Of a stretch of 64,000 nt of DNA, positions 7,817-15,316 are shown piece by piece. Position numbers and translations under genes: made by a program. The first letter of the stretch is position 1, and every line of letters starts with the position of its first letter. Under the pieces are notes generated by a model. It was not told where the DNA came from. It worked only from the letters and a program-made list of their open reading frames with translations, and did no database searches. Source of the stretch: Pseudomonas azotoformans (GTDB lineage Bacteria > Pseudomonadota > Gammaproteobacteria > Pseudomonadales > Pseudomonadaceae); NCBI RefSeq assembly GCF_001579805.1, contig NZ_CP014546.1:5146001-5210000 (forward strand), given 5' to 3'.

Positions 7817-8179
7817 TCAATCCAATGCCAATTCCACCACCCCAGCATTCAACCGCACCGGCCAAACCCGCAGCCTCTGATCAGGCGCCTCCAGGCACTG
7901 CCCATCCTCGAGCCGGTAATGCTGCTTGTAGATCGGCGCCGCCACCACCAGGTCACCCTTGATACTGCCGATCAAGCCGCGCCCGATCACATTCGCGCCG
8001 GATTCCGGGTCATGGTTGTCGATGGCAAACAACGTCTGGTCCTGCGCACCCGGCAGGTAGAACAGCGCCACTTGCGCGCCGTCCAGCCACACCACTACCC
8101 CGGAATTGCTCACCAGGTCGGTCTCGCTGCACACACCTTTCCAGGTGGCCAGGTTGCGTTGTGGGTTGGTTTGGCTCAT
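7817..8179 (-). CDS. nirD: Assimilatory nitrite reductase small subunit NirD
   Basis: A 120-residue protein with the Rieske-like fold of NirD but without Rieske cysteines. It contains ALFYLPGAQDQTLFAIDNHDPESGANVIGRG, with the NHDP...A...RG pattern of NirD, then GDLVVAAPIYKQHYRLEDGQC. Its ATG overlaps the nirB TGA by one base (ATGA), indicating translational coupling. With NirB it reduces nitrite to ammonium in the cytosol using NADH. Transcription comes from the nirB promoter and leader. Confidence 0.93.
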   Translation of the reverse strand: MSQTNPQRNLATWKGVCSETDLVSNSGVVVWLDGAQVALFYLPGAQDQTLFAIDNHDPESGANVIGRGLIGSIKGDLVVAAPIYKQHYRLEDGQCLEAPDQRLRVWPVRLNAGVVELALD

Positions 8180-10719
8180 CAGGCAATCTCCTCGGTGACG
8201 GGAATCAGGTTGAGTTCGGCGGCCATGATCGGCCGGCGTTGCCCGCGTTCCTGGACGAAGTGGATGTCCGGGTCGGGGCGTTTGTCGTTGACGAAGGTGC
8301 GAAAGCGCTTGAGTTTTTCCGGGTCTGCGAGGGTGTTGGCCCATTCGCATTCGTAGCGGTCGACCACCAGTTGCATCTGCGCCTCCAGCTCTACGCCGAG
8401 GCCCAGGCTGTCGTGCAGGATCACGTCCTTGAGGAAATCCAGGCCGCCTTCGAGGCTTTCGCGCCAGACCGAGGTGCGTTGCAGCTTGTCGGCGGTGCGG
8501 ATGTAGAACATCAGGAAGCGGTCGATGTAGCGGATCAGCGTGGCGTCATCCAGGTCAGTGGCGAACAACTCCGCATGGCGTGGGCGCATGCCGCCGTTGC
8601 CGGCGATGTAGAGGTTCCAGCCCTTCTCGGTGGCGATCACGCCGACGTCCTTGCTCTGGGCTTCGGCGCATTCACGGGTACAGCCGGACACTGCGAACTT
8701 GAGCTTGTGTGGCGAGCGCAGGCCCTTGTAGCGTTCCTCGATCAACAGCGCCATTTTCACGCTGTCCTGCACGCCGTAACGGCACCAGGTACTGCCCACG
8801 CAGGACTTCACCGTACGCGTGGATTTGCCATAGGCATGCCCGGTTTCAAACCCGGCGGCGATCAGTTCGCTCCAGATATCCGGCAGTTCGTGCAGTTGCG
8901 CGCCAAACAGGTCGATGCGCTGGCCGCCGGTGATCTTAGTATAGAGGTCATATTTCTTCGCCACTTCGCCGATCACAATCAGCTTATCCGCGGTGATTTC
9001 GCCGCCTGGAATACGCGGTACCACCGAGTAGGTACCGTTCTTCTGCATGTTGGCCATGAACGTATCGTTGGTGTCCTGCAACGGCACCAGGGACGCGTCC
9101 ATGATCGGCTGGTTCCAGCACGACGCCAGGATCGAGCCCACCGCTGGCTTGCACACGTCGCAGCCGGTGTGACCACGGCCGTGTTTGGCCAGCAGTTCGT
9201 CAAAGGTGAGGATGCCTTCCACGCGCACCAGCGCGTACAACTCCTGCCGGGTGTAGGCGAAGTGTTCGCACAGGCTCTTGTCGACGCTGACGCCACGGGC
9301 GATCAGCTCATGCTCGAACACCTGCTTGAGCAAGCCAGCGCAGCCGCCGCATCCGGTGCAGGCCTTGGTCTGGGTTTTGAGCAGGCCGAGGTCGCTGCAG
9401 CCGCCGTCGATGGCCGAGCAGATCGCGCCCTTGGTCACGTTGTGGCAGGAGCAGACGGTGGCCGATTCCGGCAGCGCGCCGGGGCCGAGGGTCGGGGCGC
9501 CGCTGGACGACGGCAGGATCAGGCTGGCCGGCTCGGGCGGCAGCGTGATGCTGTTTTGCATGTATTGCAGCAGGGTGTCGTAGTAGCTGTTGTCGCCCAC
9601 CAGCACCGCGCCGATCACATGTTTGCCCGACGCGTCCACCACCAGGCGCCGGTAGCTGGCGCTGGCTTCGTCGATGAACTGGTAGCTGCGCGCGCCCGGC
9701 GTGTGGGCATGGGCGTCACCGATGGAGCCCACGTCGACGCCGAGCAACTTGAGTTTGGTCGACATGTCGGCACCCACAAACGGCTCGGCGGTTTGCGCGC
9801 ACAGCAGCGCGGCGACGCCTCGGGCCATCTGGTAGCCCGGCGCGACCAGGCCGAACAGGCTACCGTTCCAGGACGCGCATTCGCCAATCGCGTAGATGTT
9901 CGGGTCGATGCTCAGGCATTCGTCGTTGATCACCACGCCGCCACGCGGGCCGATGTCCAGGCCGGCCTGGCGGGCCAGTGCATCCTGGGCGCGAATACCG
10001 GCGGAGAACACGATCAGGTCGGTTTCAAGGAACTCGTCATTGGCAAAATTCATACGGTAGCGGTACTGCTCCCCCGCGCTGATGGATTGGGTGGCGCGCG
10101 ACAAATGCACGCCCACGCCCAGCCGCTCGATCTGCGCCTTGAGCGCCAGGCCGCCGAAGTCGTCGAGTTGCACCGGCATCAAGCGCGGCGCGAATTCCAC
10201 CACATGGGCTTCAAGGCCGAGGCTTTTCAGGGCGTTGGCAGCTTCCAGGCCCAACAGGCCACCGCCCACTACCACACCGCGTTTCGCATTGGCGGCGGCC
10301 TTACGAATCGCGTCCAGGTCCTCAAGGGTGCGATACACCAACCGCGAATCGCCTTCGGCGCCTTCGATAGGCGGCACGAACGGATACGAACCGGTGGCCA
10401 ACACCAGCTTGTCATAGGCGACGCAGCCGTTGGCGGTGATCACTTCGCAGCGCGCGCGGTCGATCTCCAGCACCGGTACGCCCAGGTGCAGGGTGACACC
10501 CGGCGTCTGGTACAACGCGGCGTCGGACAAAGCCAGCGACTCGGCATCGCGACCGGTGAAGTATTCAGACAGGTGCACCCGGTCATAGGCGCGCATCGGC
10601 TCTTCGCTGAACACGTGCAAACGGTAGTGATCCAGCGCGCCGCGCTCGATCAATTGCGCCACACAGTGGTGGCCGACCATGCCATTGCCGACGACGATCA
10701 AGGTTTTGAGATGGTTCAT
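8179..10719 (-). CDS. nirB: NADH-dependent assimilatory nitrite reductase large subunit NirB
   Basis: An 846-residue siroheme/FAD enzyme. Order of domains: FAD-binding fold LIVVGNGMVGHH, NAD-binding GVVVGGGLLGLEAA (about residue 148), BFD-type [2Fe-2S] domain with CSCHNVTKG and CTGCGGC (about 420-460), then the sulfite/nitrite reductase half-domains with siroheme-4Fe4S cysteines in CVGSTWC and SGCTREC (about 635-680). It reduces nitrite by six electrons to ammonium. ATG 10719 is preferred over the upstream GTG 10728. A sigma-54-type promoter and an ANTAR-type leader terminator lie upstream. Confidence 0.95.
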   Translation of the reverse strand: MNHLKTLIVVGNGMVGHHCVAQLIERGALDHYRLHVFSEEPMRAYDRVHLSEYFTGRDAESLALSDAALYQTPGVTLHLGVPVLEIDRARCEVITANGCVAYDKLVLATGSYPFVPPIEGAEGDSRLVYRTLEDLDAIRKAAANAKRGVVVGGGLLGLEAANALKSLGLEAHVVEFAPRLMPVQLDDFGGLALKAQIERLGVGVHLSRATQSISAGEQYRYRMNFANDEFLETDLIVFSAGIRAQDALARQAGLDIGPRGGVVINDECLSIDPNIYAIGECASWNGSLFGLVAPGYQMARGVAALLCAQTAEPFVGADMSTKLKLLGVDVGSIGDAHAHTPGARSYQFIDEASASYRRLVVDASGKHVIGAVLVGDNSYYDTLLQYMQNSITLPPEPASLILPSSSGAPTLGPGALPESATVCSCHNVTKGAICSAIDGGCSDLGLLKTQTKACTGCGGCAGLLKQVFEHELIARGVSVDKSLCEHFAYTRQELYALVRVEGILTFDELLAKHGRGHTGCDVCKPAVGSILASCWNQPIMDASLVPLQDTNDTFMANMQKNGTYSVVPRIPGGEITADKLIVIGEVAKKYDLYTKITGGQRIDLFGAQLHELPDIWSELIAAGFETGHAYGKSTRTVKSCVGSTWCRYGVQDSVKMALLIEERYKGLRSPHKLKFAVSGCTRECAEAQSKDVGVIATEKGWNLYIAGNGGMRPRHAELFATDLDDATLIRYIDRFLMFYIRTADKLQRTSVWRESLEGGLDFLKDVILHDSLGLGVELEAQMQLVVDRYECEWANTLADPEKLKRFRTFVNDKRPDPDIHFVQERGQRRPIMAAELNLIPVTEEIA

Positions 10720-10756: not shown

Positions 10757-10795
10757 AGCAAAAAAAAACGCCTGAAACCTTGCGGTTCCAGGCGT
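10757..10795 (-). terminator. Leader terminator of nirBD
   Basis: On the minus strand, ACGCCTGGAACC, loop GCAA, GGTTTCAGGCGT form a 12-bp stem with one mismatch, followed by a run of U. This intrinsic terminator sits 40 bp upstream of nirB, reads in the nirB direction and follows no gene. It therefore acts as an attenuator, not as an end-of-gene stop. Confidence 0.85.
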
Positions 10796-10804
10796 CTTTG
10801 CCTG
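10789..10804 (-). promoter_or_regulatory. ANTAR hairpin P2 of the nirB leader
   Basis: Minus strand CAGGC-AAAGAC-GCCTG has a 5-bp perfect stem and a hexaloop with A at position 1 and G at position 4, as in ANTAR target RNAs. Its 3' arm is shared with the 5' arm of the terminator at 10768-10795, so the two structures exclude each other. Confidence 0.75.
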
Positions 10805-10862
10805 TTCTTATGCGGGTTCGGATCGGGCGACTTCGCCGGATTCACCGCTATATGCCCCGGTG

Positions 10863-10880
10863 TCGATCGTCGTTGACCGA
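10863..10880 (-). promoter_or_regulatory. ANTAR hairpin P1 candidate of the nirB leader
   Basis: Minus strand TCGGTC-AACGAC-GATCGA has a 6-bp stem with one G-U pair and a hexaloop with A1 and G4. It begins about 10 nt after the start predicted from the sigma-54-like promoter at 10901-10915. The linker to P2 is 58 nt, much longer than in the nasA leader. Confidence 0.55.
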
Positions 10881-10900
10881 AGTGGGTTGAGGGGGAGCTT

Positions 10901-10915
10901 GCAGGGTCTGTGCCA
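10901..10915 (-). promoter_or_regulatory. Sigma-54-type promoter of nirBD
   Basis: Minus strand TGGCACAGACCCTGC has GG and GC elements at the -24/-12 spacing of the RpoN consensus TGGCACG-N4-TTGC, with one mismatch in the -12 box. This fits NtrC-type nitrogen control of nitrite assimilation. Confidence 0.65.
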
Positions 10916-11045
10916 AGCCATCTGATAGCCCGTTACAACAGCCAATGTCGTCGCTTAACCCCGCCAAACGCATTGTTCAGCGCCTCCAACTGGTGCGCTC
11001 CGCTTCATAAATGTGCACGCCCCACCCTCTGCTGAACATTTTATT

Positions 11046-11133
11046 GTGGTGAGCGGGCTTGCCCCGCGCCCAAGTCACCTCGGTCTCAAGAGGGCTGCTG
11101 CGCAGCCCAGCGCGGGGCAAGCCCGCTCACCAC
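11046..11133. repeat. REPIN (type 1) between nirB and nasA
   Basis: Two inverted REP units, GTGGTGAGCGGGCTTGCCCC and its mirror (11110-11133), flank about 40 bp. The same unit recurs as a shorter copy at 37875-37918. The region 10916-11209 otherwise shows no gene; besides this repeat it holds only promoter-proximal sequence. Confidence 0.8.
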
Positions 11134-11209
11134 AACAAGCTCTGCTCACCACAGCAGCCCACTCACCAAAAAACGCCAGTTCACCTAACAAACCCCGTCG
11201 TGAAAAACC

Positions 11210-11225
11210 TGGCGCGTGACTTGCT
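11210..11225 (+). promoter_or_regulatory. Sigma-54-type promoter of nasA
   Basis: TGGCGCGTGACTTGCT matches TGGCACG-N4-TTGCW with a single substitution and correct GG/GC spacing. The predicted start is near 11236, just before hairpin P1. Confidence 0.75.
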
Positions 11226-11242
11226 AGGAACACTCCAACCAA

Positions 11243-11260
11243 GCAGTCAACGCTGACTGC
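11243..11260 (+). promoter_or_regulatory. ANTAR hairpin P1 of the nasA leader
   Basis: GCAGTC-AACGCT-GACTGC has a perfect 6-bp stem and a hexaloop with A1 and G4, the invariant loop bases of ANTAR-binding RNA. It is separated from P2 by five bases (CCTCT). Confidence 0.8.
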
Positions 11261-11265
11261 CCTCT

Positions 11266-11283
11266 CACGACAAAGGCGCCGTG
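11266..11283 (+). promoter_or_regulatory. ANTAR hairpin P2 of the nasA leader
   Basis: CACGAC-AAAGGC-GCCGTG has a 6-bp stem with one A-C mismatch and a hexaloop with A1 and G4. It contains the terminator 5' arm AAAGGCGCC (11272-11280), so P2 and terminator are alternatives. NasT binding to P1-P2 would let transcription enter nasA. Confidence 0.75.
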
Positions 11284-11324
11284 TAATCCCCGTTCTGAAC
11301 GGAGGGTTGCAAGGCGCCTTTTTT
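11272..11324 (+). terminator. Leader terminator of nasA
   Basis: AAAGGCGCC (11272-11280) pairs with GGCGCCTTT (11313-11321), enclosing a smaller CCGTT/AACGG hairpin, and runs into a T-tract. It lies 18 bp upstream of the nasA ATG with no gene before it, so it is an attenuator. Confidence 0.85.
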
Positions 11325-11341
11325 GTTTACGCAGGTTTCAG

Positions 11342-14300
11342 ATGGCCAACCAAAGCATACGCAGCGTGTGTCCTTATTGTGGCGTGGGCTGCGGCATCGT
11401 CATGCAGGTGCAAGACAATAAAGTGGTCAAGGTGATCGGCGACAAAGCCCACCCCACCAACTTTGGCCGCCTGTGCACCAAGGGCACCACCTGCGGGCAA
11501 GCCATCGCCGAGTCCGGACGCATGGAAAACGCCTATGTACGCCAGGCCCGGCAGAATGACCCGGTGCGCATCGGCATGGACAACGCCCTCCGCGAAACCG
11601 CGCGCCGCCTGCGTCACACCCTCGACACCCACGGCCCGGACGCCTTGGCGTTCTACGTGTCGGGCCAGATGTCACTGGAATCCCAATACCTGATCAATAA
11701 ATTGGCCAAGGGCTTCGTCCGCACATCCAACATCGAGTCAAACTCGCGGCTGTGCATGGCCAGCGCCGGCAGTGGCTACAAACTCTCCCTCGGCGCCGAC
11801 GGCCCGCCGGGGTCTTATGAAGACTTCGATCGCGCCGACCTGTTCTTCGTGATCGGCGCGAACATGGCTGACTGTCACCCGATCCTGTTCTTGCGCATGA
11901 TGGACCGGGTCAAGGCCGGGGCGAAGCTGATCGTGGTCGACCCCCGGCGCAGCGCCACGGCGGACAAGGCCAACCTGTTCCTGCCGATCAAACCCGGCAC
12001 CGACCTGGCGTTGCTCAATGGCCTGCTGCACCTGCTGGTCAAAAACGGCCATACCGCCCCTGCCTTTATCGCCGCCTTTACCCAAGGCTGGGAGGCGATG
12101 CCCGAATTCCTCGAGGACTATTCGCCAGAGCACGTCGCCGCCATCACCGGCCTGGCCGAAGCCGATATCCGCCAAGCCGCCGACTGGATCGGCCAGGCCG
12201 CCGAGTGGATGAGCTGCTGGACCATGGGCCTCAACCAGAGCACCCACGGCACCTGGCACACCAACGCGCTGTGCAACCTGCACCTGGCGACAGGCGCCAT
12301 TTGCCGGCCGGGCAGCGGGCCGTTTTCCCTCACGGGTCAACCCAATGCCATGGGCGGGCGCGAAATGGGTTACATGGGTCCTGGACTGCCGGGGCAACGT
12401 TCGGTGTTGGTCGAGGCCGACCGCGCCTTTATCGAAGACCTGTGGCAGATCCCCCACGACAGCCTGCCGCGCCAGGCTGGCAGCGGCACCGTGGCGATGT
12501 TCGAACAGATGGCCGCCGGGCAGATCAAGGCCTGCTGGATCATCTGCACCAACCCGGTCGCCAGCGTGCCTAACCGACAAACCGTGATCAAAGGCCTGCA
12601 AACCGCCGAACTGGTGATCACCCAGGATGCTTTTCTCGATACCGAAACCAACCGCTACGCCGACATCCTGTTGCCCGGCGCGCTGTGGGCCGAGGCCGAA
12701 GGGGTGATGATCAACTCCGAGCGCAACCTGACCCTGATGCAAAAAGCCGTCGACGCGCCCGGCGAGACCCTGCCCGACTGGCAGATCATCGCCAGGGTCG
12801 CCTGTGAAATGGGCTTTGCCGACGCGTTCACCTATGCATCCGCCGCTGACGTGTTTGAAGAAATAAAACGTGCCTGGAACCCCAAGACCGGCTACGACCT
12901 CCGTGGCGCGAGCTACCCGCGCCTGCGTGAGCAGCCGCTGCAATGGCCCTGCGCATCGGAGGATGGCGCGGACCGCAACCCGATCCGCTACCGGGACACA
13001 GGCGCCCTCACCTTCGCCACCGAAAACGGCAAAGCCCTGTTCTTCGCCCGCCCGCATATGCCGCCCGCAGAGATGCCCGATGACGTGTTCCCCTTTGTGC
13101 TCAACACCGGCCGCGTGCAGCACCAATGGCACACCCTGACCAAGACCGGCAAGGTCGCGACCCTGAACAAACTCAACCCCGGGCCCTTCGTGGAATTACA
13201 CCCCGAAGACGCAGCCAATCTGGGCATCAAAAACAAGGATCAGGTCGAGATACGCTCCCAGCGCGGCCGCGCCGTACTGCCCGCCGTGGTCACCGACCGT
13301 GTACGGCCAGGCAACTGCTTTGCGCCGTTCCACTGGAACGATGTGTTCGGTGAACACCTGGCCATCAACGCAGTGACCAACGACGCGGTGGACCCGATTT
13401 CCTTGCAGCCGGAGTTCAAGCACTGCGCTGTCGCCCTGGCCCGCGTCGAGCTGATCGACCATCAATTCCTGGACCGCCCTTCCCCCGTAGCTGAGGACAC
13501 TCCCATGTCGCGCCTCGACGCCTTCGCCGAAATCGCCGGCATCCGCAACCTCCCCGCGCCGCCACTGAGCGAGGGTGAGCGTACCTACCTCGCCGGCTTC
13601 CTCAGCGGCTTGCAAGCCAATACCGCACGCCAGGCAGTAGACGTGCCGACCCTGCCCGCCAATGCACCGCTGGCCGATGCGTCACGGCTTTGGTTGAACG
13701 GCTTGCTCGGCGGTTTGTTCAGCCATACGCAATCCCCCGCAGCGCCCTCCCCGGCCGTCACCTTGTTATGGGCCTCGCAAACCGGCAACGCCGAAGCCTT
13801 GGCCGAGCGTTTTGCCAAACGGCTGCGCGACGCGGGCATTACCGTGGAACTGAGCGCGATGGCGGATTTCCCGGCGAGCAAACTGGCAAGCACCCACACC
13901 CTGGCGCTGATCAGCAGCACCTTTGGCGACGGCGACCCACCGGACAATGGCGAAGGGTTCTGGCACAGCCTCAGCACCGCCGAGACGCGCCTAGAGTCCC
14001 TGCGCTTCGCGGTGCTGGCCCTGGGCGACCCGAGCTACGAGCAGTTCTGCAACCACGGCAAACAACTCGACCAACGCCTGTTGGAACTGGGCGCCACCCG
14101 CCTGTTGGAACGCGTCGACTGCGATACCGAATTCGAAGCACTGGCCGATGCCTGGCTACTGCGTTTCCAGCAGACCCTGGCCCCGGCAAAGCCCGTCGCG
14201 CCCGCCACCCCCGCCGGGAAAACCAAGCTGTACGGCTCACGCCTGCTACTCAACCGACACCTGAACCCGCACAGCGTCCACAAGGAAACCCGCCAATTTG

Positions 14301-15316
14301 CCCTAGACCTGACCGACTCCGGGCTGACCTACGAAGCCGGTGATGCCCTGGGTGTGCGGCCGCGCAACTGCCCCGAACTGGTCAGCGAGTTGCTCGACCT
14401 CACACGCTTGAACGCCAGTACCTGCGTGAACATCGACACCTTCGGCGACGTGCCCTTGCAACAGGCCCTGACCCAGCACTTCGAAATCGCCCGGCCCAGC
14501 AGCGACACCCTGGCTTTCATCGCCGAGCGCAGCGCCAACCCTGGCCTCAAGCACTTGCTCAACCCCGAACATAAGGCCGAACTGAATGACTGGCTCTGGG
14601 GTCGGCAACTGGCGGATGTGTTGCTGGAGTACCCCGTCGAGTGTTCGGCGGATGAACTGCTGGGCACCCTCAAGCGCCTGCAACCGCGCCTGTATTCAAT
14701 CGCGTCCAGCGCCAAGGCCTATCCACAGGAAGTGCACCTCACCGTGGCCGCCGTGCGTTACGGCAAACGTAAAGGCGTGTCCTCGACCTTCCTGGCTGAC
14801 CGGGTCGGCGACGGCGAGGTGCCGTTGTTCATCCAGCCGTCCAAACACTTCCGCACGCCCACTGACGGCGACGTGCCAATGATCATGATCGGCCCCGGCA
14901 CCGGTATCGCGCCCTTTCGCGCGTTCTTGCAGGAACGTCGCGCGCTGGGTCATCAGGGGCGCAACTGGCTGTTCTTCGGCGAACAGCACGCCGCCAGCGA
15001 TTTCTACTATCAAGACGAACTGCAAGGCATGCAGCGCGACGGCCTGCTCAACCACTTGAGCCTGGCGTTCTCGCGCGACCAGGCGCAAAAGGTCTACGTG
15101 CAGGACCGCATCCGCGAACAGGGGGCCGAGCTGTGGCGCTGGTTGGAGGACGGCGCCAGGCTGTATATCTGCGGTGACGCCAGCCACATGGCCAAAGATG
15201 TCGACCAGGCCTTGCGCCAAGTCGCGCAAACCCACGGCGGGCTTGGCGTCGAGGGTGCCGTGGAGTACTGGCGGCAGCTGAGTGAGCAGAAGCGCTATCT
15301 GCGTGATGTGTATTGA
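11342..15316 (+). CDS. nasA: Assimilatory nitrate reductase fused to a sulfite-reductase-type diflavin reductase
   Basis: A 1324-residue cytosolic enzyme. Residues 10-45 hold the [4Fe-4S] cysteines CPYCGVGC and LCTKGTTCG, then the molybdopterin domains (to about 700) with VDPRRSATA and the C-terminal MGD-binding domain LNTGRVQHQWHT. A linker leads to a flavodoxin-like FMN domain (LLWASQTGNAEALAE, about 804-945), an FAD domain (RLYSIASS, about 1115) and an NADPH domain (GPGTGIAPFRAFLQER, about 1183). Nitrate is reduced to nitrite with electrons delivered internally from NADPH, feeding NirBD. This bifunctional form is known in Pseudomonas. Expression should depend on the sigma-54-type promoter and the ANTAR leader. 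Confidence 0.95.
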   Translation: MANQSIRSVCPYCGVGCGIVMQVQDNKVVKVIGDKAHPTNFGRLCTKGTTCGQAIAESGRMENAYVRQARQNDPVRIGMDNALRETARRLRHTLDTHGPDALAFYVSGQMSLESQYLINKLAKGFVRTSNIESNSRLCMASAGSGYKLSLGADGPPGSYEDFDRADLFFVIGANMADCHPILFLRMMDRVKAGAKLIVVDPRRSATADKANLFLPIKPGTDLALLNGLLHLLVKNGHTAPAFIAAFTQGWEAMPEFLEDYSPEHVAAITGLAEADIRQAADWIGQAAEWMSCWTMGLNQSTHGTWHTNALCNLHLATGAICRPGSGPFSLTGQPNAMGGREMGYMGPGLPGQRSVLVEADRAFIEDLWQIPHDSLPRQAGSGTVAMFEQMAAGQIKACWIICTNPVASVPNRQTVIKGLQTAELVITQDAFLDTETNRYADILLPGALWAEAEGVMINSERNLTLMQKAVDAPGETLPDWQIIARVACEMGFADAFTYASAADVFEEIKRAWNPKTGYDLRGASYPRLREQPLQWPCASEDGADRNPIRYRDTGALTFATENGKALFFARPHMPPAEMPDDVFPFVLNTGRVQHQWHTLTKTGKVATLNKLNPGPFVELHPEDAANLGIKNKDQVEIRSQRGRAVLPAVVTDRVRPGNCFAPFHWNDVFGEHLAINAVTNDAVDPISLQPEFKHCAVALARVELIDHQFLDRPSPVAEDTPMSRLDAFAEIAGIRNLPAPPLSEGERTYLAGFLSGLQANTARQAVDVPTLPANAPLADASRLWLNGLLGGLFSHTQSPAAPSPAVTLLWASQTGNAEALAERFAKRLRDAGITVELSAMADFPASKLASTHTLALISSTFGDGDPPDNGEGFWHSLSTAETRLESLRFAVLALGDPSYEQFCNHGKQLDQRLLELGATRLLERVDCDTEFEALADAWLLRFQQTLAPAKPVAPATPAGKTKLYGSRLLLNRHLNPHSVHKETRQFALDLTDSGLTYEAGDALGVRPRNCPELVSELLDLTRLNASTCVNIDTFGDVPLQQALTQHFEIARPSSDTLAFIAERSANPGLKHLLNPEHKAELNDWLWGRQLADVLLEYPVECSADELLGTLKRLQPRLYSIASSAKAYPQEVHLTVAAVRYGKRKGVSSTFLADRVGDGEVPLFIQPSKHFRTPTDGDVPMIMIGPGTGIAPFRAFLQERRALGHQGRNWLFFGEQHAASDFYYQDELQGMQRDGLLNHLSLAFSRDQAQKVYVQDRIREQGAELWRWLEDGARLYICGDASHMAKDVDQALRQVAQTHGGLGVEGAVEYWRQLSEQKRYLRDVY

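Follow-up and report, generated by a model that had tools for sequence, protein, structure and literature searches.

The nirB–nasA locus

The window, i.e., the whole stretch of 64,000 nucleotides analyzed here, belongs to a genome of 6.86 Mb that is assembled in one contig (completeness 100). It holds the divergently oriented genes nirB and nasA. The closest named nirB, at 99% protein identity, is that of Pseudomonas canadensis, although this comparison may omit records very near the window's own. For nirD we took the start from the open reading frame translation; the sequence used as Pfam query began upstream of it. The genes and the elements preceding nasA are:

7817..8179, minus strand: nirD, Rieske-type small subunit
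8179..10719, minus strand: nirB, nitrite reductase large subunit, divergent from nasA, ATG at 10719
11210..11225, plus strand: sigma-54 -24/-12 promoter of nasA, TGGCGCGTGACTTGCT, element TGGCGCG-TGAC-TTGCT with GG and GC 10 nt apart
11243..11260, plus strand: hairpin P1 of nasA, GCAGTC[AACGCT]GACTGC, 6 bp, A1/G4 hexaloop, C-G closing pair
11266..11283, plus strand: hairpin P2 of nasA, CACGAC[AAAGGC]GCCGTG, A1/G4 hexaloop, C-G closing pair
11272..11324, plus strand: intrinsic terminator of nasA, 5' arm AAAGGCGCC beginning in the P2 loop, six T at the end (11319-11324)
11342..15316, plus strand: nasA, molybdopterin nitrate reductase fused to flavodoxin/FAD/NAD reductase domains, 1324 aa

From the sigma-54 site, the nasA transcript is predicted to start at about 11236. 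A linker of 5 nt (11261-11265) separates P1 and P2. The stretch 11236-11324 thereby shows the hallmarks of an ANTAR leader, i.e., a pair of hexaloop hairpins, a terminator that overlaps P2, a short linker and, encoded in the same genome, an ANTAR protein. Promoter, hairpins and terminator, with its 5' arm inside P2, lie at the coordinates that a sequence-only reading had assigned to them. This reading had also stated correctly that no gene precedes the leader, the nearest upstream gene being the divergent nirB, and it had omitted one A.C mismatch at pair 2 of P2 (A11270, C11279), which adjoins the closing pair.

We found this mismatch in all 44 distinct nasA leaders of our scan (own included); in narK leaders, pair 2 of P2 is A-U in 29/29 cases. 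The mismatch may tune P2 of nasA, although the nasA leaders compared are close relatives. Among the 44 leaders the P1 and P2 loops lie 22–25 nt apart, and the P1 stems change in a compensatory manner, e.g., GGCAATC/GATTGCC and AGCGGTC/GATCGCT.

The sequence-only reading had placed nitrate control of nasA on top of nitrogen control. The latter is backed by the sigma-54 promoter and by work on relatives, as far as the cited sections of PMC12830290 and PMC8443478 go, but its NtrC component found no counterpart here: none of the window's 94 NtrC-like matches (at most three mismatches) lies between nirB and nasA, and with 120 matches expected there is no enrichment in the window. We therefore claim no NtrC site. 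As judged by eye, a long imperfect inverted repeat of REP-like appearance (11041-11140) separates the two promoters.

Chance controls and folding of the nasA leader

We scanned both strands of the 64 kb for a sigma-54-like site followed by two A..G.. hexaloop hairpins and a terminator overlapping P2. This combined scan returned exactly two sites, before nasA and before nirB. In 30 dinucleotide-shuffled versions of the window, the scan picked up two sites altogether, one of them with a short linker.

The 110-nt nasA leader folds with -48.3 kcal/mol, compared with -29.8 ± 3.1 kcal/mol for shuffled sequences (z = -5.9, 0/200). This excess comes mostly from the terminator; P1 and P2 alone are unexceptional (z = -1.7, 11/200 shuffles equally good). 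When we folded the transcript as growing prefixes, P1 and P2 persisted until base 11308 and terminator pairing set in from base 11314, with the folds of P2 and terminator being mutually exclusive. The full leader loses about 21 kcal/mol of stability when P1 and P2 are forced to form. Because the terminator outcompetes the two hairpins, the default state of nasA should be 'off', and P2 must be held by something to be maintained.

These data could in principle describe a promoter followed by an ordinary, protein-free attenuator, with hexaloops that are incidental and unbound. The conserved block could owe its position to nothing more than a sigma-54 promoter and a strong terminator, the equilibrium fold is dominated by the terminator, and the hairpins on their own do not stand out in folding. 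However, A1 and G4 of the loops are kept while other loop positions vary, the P1 stems compensate, and the presence of the leader tracks NasT or NasR (see below). Moreover, a terminator without release would presumably leave the genes permanently off. We consider a protein-free attenuator very unlikely.

The nasA leader matches the Rfam family 'narK RNA'

The sequence-only reading had proposed a covariance model search of the leader. The Rfam model RF03032, 'narK RNA', matches 11211-11282 with 55 bits (E = 1.4e-7), above its gathering threshold of 43.2. The sigma-54 site of nasA also underlies the first positions of this match. The RF03032 consensus consists of a sigma-54 site (GGCaCA....UUGCU), a P1 with AACGGC loop and then ACGACAAAGACGUCGC, which is left unpaired; this segment, CGAC-AAAGAC-GUCG, is able to pair as a P2 with the loop AAAGAC. 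The model pairs P1 only, starts inside the promoter and stops in P2 before the terminator, and about 25 of its 72 positions, the first ones, lie upstream of the predicted start. With a consensus made up of sigma-54 site, P1 and a pairable P2, RF03032 looks like a promoter plus ANTAR leader. The 'narK RNA' is therefore probably an antitermination leader for NasT or NasR, cut such that it includes promoter DNA and leaves P2 unpaired. We found no published work on 'narK RNA' or RF03032 in the open literature.

The family is typed in Rfam as a cis-regulatory RNA and stands before nitrate genes here, which would also suit a protein-independent riboswitch for nitrate or another small molecule. With the upstream positions discounted, however, its RNA part barely exceeds two short hairpins. 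The element also obeys the two-hairpin ANTAR rule and tends to occur in genomes that encode ANTAR proteins. We give a riboswitch still less credit than the protein-free attenuator.

In the own genome, RF03032 scored 81.1 bits at narK, 55 bits at nasA and 36.4 bits, i.e., below the cut-off, at nasS; the remaining 12 matches (up to E = 10) reached 20.8 bits or less. In both the narK and the nasS leader a terminator overlaps P2. Including nirB, the genome hence has leaders before nasA, nirB, narK and nasST, with four different stems and loops of the types AACGNN and AAAGRC. The nasST leader (L010 4571-4700) comprises a sigma-54 site, hexaloop hairpins and a terminator, and pair 4 of its P2 is G.G. 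Since nasST has a leader of its own, NasT may control its own operon.

Across the class, RF03032 was found in 13/274 genomes at E = 0.001, in three of them above the cut-off. Leaving out the own genome, 11/12 of these genomes have an ANTAR protein; the exception, G344, has no ANTAR match. Nine of the 13 class loci (L190-L202) precede a homologue of narK, nasS or nasA. The two-hairpin element was present in 11 loci and not found in L197 and L198; eight of the 11 have a sigma-54 score of at least 12, and nine a terminator stem of at least 8. Pair 4 of P2 is C-G, G-C, A-U, U-A or G-U in these 11 loci. That it varies yet stays paired argues that P2 is a real helix.

Two other Rfam candidates were rejected, a weak match to P11 (17.7 bits against a cut-off of 70) and Thr_leader over the nirB leader (20.6 bits against 55, sub-threshold like other matches there).

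NasT as the probable reader of the leaders

We searched the own genome for ANTAR proteins and obtained one match at an E cut-off of 0.001, NasT, which has receiver and ANTAR domains and whose gene adjoins that of a NasS-like protein. This makes NasT the most likely holder of P2 in the nasA leader. In relatives without NasT, NasR-type proteins occur, and an ANTAR protein of NasR or AmiR type might likewise read the leaders here. The single ANTAR match in a complete, one-contig genome is NasT, however, and another reader is about as improbable as the riboswitch.

Among 99 congeneric genomes, RF03032 and NasT agree in 95, with 85 having both and 10 neither (Fisher p = 2e-10, kinship disregarded). 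One genome (G041) has NasT only, and three have RF03032 only. Two of these three, G043 and G068, encode a NIT-ANTAR (NasR-type) protein. The third, G086, has no ANTAR, NasT or NirB match; a full leader precedes a nasA without its middle (L207 2011-2730), in which the start (within residues 1-154) is joined to the end (residues 1236-1324). The G086 nasA is a relic.

Twelve of the 13 genomes without NasT were searched for ANTAR proteins (G075 was left out). Four encode a NasR-type NIT-ANTAR protein, i.e., G001, G018, G043 and G068 (loci L151, L152, L153 and L154), and G051 has two ANTAR matches. A hexaloop leader before nirB is kept in G018, G043 and G068; in G001, which has nirB and the NasR-type protein, we found no full leader before nirB. 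Searches over more than 40 genomes used stricter filters, with weak matches being lost. Across genomes, the leader type accompanies NasT or, where NasT is missing, a NasR-type protein.

In Pseudomonas putida, deletion of nasT abolishes growth on nitrate, as stated in PMC7261876. For Paracoccus, the cited part of PMC3795266 describes that nitrate or nitrite release NasT from NasS and that NasT binds the nasA leader. Although a NasT hairpin is predicted for narK of Bradyrhizobium, a nasT mutant expresses this gene more strongly, and such hairpins are missing from most genes that depend on NasT (sections of PMC6759348). A hairpin alone is hence no proof of control. For nasA, the NasST antitermination put forward by the sequence-only reading gains support from the leader anatomy, the folding, the encoded NasS-like and NasT proteins and the co-occurrence with NasT or NasR.

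A variant leader with a folded linker precedes nirB

Beyond what had been read from the sequence before, the nasA element proved to be an Rfam family already, and a second, more unusual leader was found in front of the divergent nirB (minus strand, 10915-10760):

10900..10915, minus strand: sigma-54 promoter of nirB, TGGCACAGACCCTGCA, predicted start at about 10889
10863..10880, minus strand: P1, UCGGUC[AACGAC]GAUCGA
10805..10862, minus strand: folded linker of 58 nt, holding the middle hairpin PM
10837-10826, minus strand: core of PM, GGC[GAAGUC]GCC, G4 kept, A1 replaced by G
10789..10804, minus strand: P2, CAGGC[AAAGAC]GCCUG
10760..10799, minus strand: terminator, 16-bp stem from the P2 loop, then a T run

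A1/G4 hexaloops and the overlap of P2 and terminator are present as in ANTAR leaders, but 58 nt lie between the stems where a short linker has 5–12 nt. Judging from its sequence, the nirB leader would work like an ANTAR two-hairpin leader, and we class it as a variant.

The long linker is widespread. In 30/30 family loci, the P1 and P2 loops before nirB lie 60–87 nt apart. Minimal forms with 39–53 nt (L067, L069, L145, L118) or 44 nt (L204) are real exceptions. A scan that itself requires A..G.. loops found P2, a terminator and one or more such hairpins upstream in all 110 nirB loci sampled. After removal of L133, which had no passing sigma-54 site, 109 loci with 95 distinct leaders remained. 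In alignment columns, i.e., with the loop requirement off, 90/95 have A1/G4 at P1; the other five carry the A1/G4 hexaloop in PM instead, and none has lost both. Losses of P1 and PM may thus be mutually exclusive, although the five leaders without A1/G4 at P1 seem to fall into two related groups.

For alignment A1 we manually removed 11/95 leaders, which were minimal forms or lacked P1 or PM; of the 81 distinct segments left, the 56 of at least 110 nt were used. Unprompted, RNAalifold returned P1, PM and P2 only, with 13 pairs, one of them compensatory. In the 56 leaders, aligned without structure, the structure that we named pairs 91.6% of the cells, with compensatory changes in 11/32 pairs; counts for the outer helices lean on the chosen structure, because helices were named from single-sequence folds and then counted. 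The covariation score was 0.139, compared with 0.107 ± 0.005 for shuffled alignments (0/500) and at most 0.064 for slid ones. For 30 family loci (eight from the same genus), aligned to a model that favours the structure, 20/32 pairs were compensatory and the score was 0.172, against 0.074 ± 0.006 shuffled and at most 0.073 slid.

Model R1 scores the window's own nirB leader, which was absent from its training, with 70.9 bits. It matches 62/148 family genomes in 10/19 genera and, among 274 class genomes, the own genome only. All 62 genomes belong to the 114 with an ANTAR protein (52 have ANTAR without R1), and R1 was found in none of the 34 without ANTAR (p = 3e-10, kinship disregarded). We fetched 30 of the 62 matches, and 30/30 stand before nirB. 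At the gathering thresholds of Rfam release 15, no family was found at the nirB leader in the window or in 17 other nirB loci. A search of the open literature for ANTAR with 'three-way junction' gave nothing on ANTAR leaders, as judged by titles and the beginnings of abstracts.

Many nirB leaders carry a third hexaloop

Of 117 distinct nirB leader cores, 68 have a further A1/G4 hexaloop with C-G closing pair in the region from the P1 site to P2. The 117 cores are a recount of 125 rows that held eight repeats; with repeats included the number is 72/125, whereas shuffled linkers (n = 200) gave 5.6 on average and never more than 11. The extra hexaloop lies near P2, i.e., in PM, in 61 cores and beside P1, in the second arm, in seven (L167, L180, L181, L183, L185, L186, L188). 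As five of the 68 have no A1/G4 loop at the P1 site, 63 leaders carry three hexaloops. The extra A1/G4 loops comprise 29 different sequences, i.e., loop positions 1 and 4 are kept and the others vary. The next loop class, G1/G4, has 38 loops with five sequences, among them the window's own PM loop GAAGUC. In the EutV structure, as described in the cited section of PMC8934654, G4 is the base in stacking contact with the protein; A1 is not specifically contacted and is believed to give the loop its shape.

Taken together, the nirB leader of Pseudomonadaceae could be a distinct ANTAR-leader architecture, a proposal for which we see about even odds. P1 would sit in a branched scaffold, and a covarying folded linker, mostly of about 43–70 nt, would replace the short spacer. 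The further A1/G4 hexaloop, located usually in PM and in some genera in the second arm, next to P1, would offer NasT an additional or alternative site of recruitment prior to its capture by P2. Folding, not linker length, would join the hairpins. The readers would be NasT or, in some species, NasR.

Antitermination model for nasA

We conclude, with a probability of about 0.9, that 11210-11342 serves nasA as a NasT-dependent antitermination leader, that it is one of four found in the genome (nasA, nirB, narK, nasST), and that RF03032 is most likely the same element. Sigma-54 RNA polymerase would start at about 11236, and folding predicts that P1 and P2 form first in the transcript. As the RNA gets longer, the far stabler terminator is predicted to capture the 3' half of P2, and transcription would stop before nasA. 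As shown in relatives, nitrate or nitrite would release NasT from NasS; NasT would then hold P1/P2, so that the polymerase reads through into nasA.

This mechanism is already known for NasT in relatives, and the nasA case adds one more such leader. What the analysis contributes is a proposed function for an Rfam family so far named only 'narK RNA', and the indication of a four-leader nitrate regulon, nasST included, under one NasT. In addition, it describes leaders of this type that go with a NasR-type protein in place of NasT, and a nirB leader with three hexaloops.

Comparison with known antitermination leaders

NasT leaders of Pseudomonadaceae, i.e., NalA of nirBD and the leader of Azotobacter nasAB, combine a sigma-54/NtrC-dependent promoter with an elongation-blocking hairpin and NasT antitermination, according to the cited sections of PMC12316311 and of the review PMC12830290, which for NalA cites Romeo 2012 and Nie 2024. 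The leaders described here resemble them, and with NasT antitermination of the nirBD leader on record, regulation of nirB in this manner was already known. In contrast to these systems, nasA and nirB are divergent here and have one leader each. Compared with the nasA leader, RF03032 is most likely the same element, but unpaired at P2 and lacking the terminator.

Two A1/G4 hexaloop hairpins with a terminator overlapping P2 are also found in the Klebsiella nasF leader (PMC3369936, PMC7496416, in the parts cited). The reader differs, being the NIT-ANTAR protein NasR for nasF and the receiver-ANTAR protein NasT with NasS here. The Enterococcus eut leaders read by EutV likewise have tandem A1/G4 hexaloops and a P2 that overlaps the terminator. 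Their natural linkers measure 5–12 nt, and in vivo, induction fell drastically once the linker had 3 or 14 nt (cited section of PMC3369931); in vitro, a linker extended by 20 nt abolished antitermination (PMC8934654). By comparison, the linker has 5 nt in nasA and 58 nt, folded, in nirB. The nirB leader is thus a natural counter-example to strict EutV spacing, and we rate it more interesting than the nasA leader. It bears on the question of whether an ANTAR dimer has to bridge two hairpins or is first bound by a recruitment hairpin and then passed on to P2.
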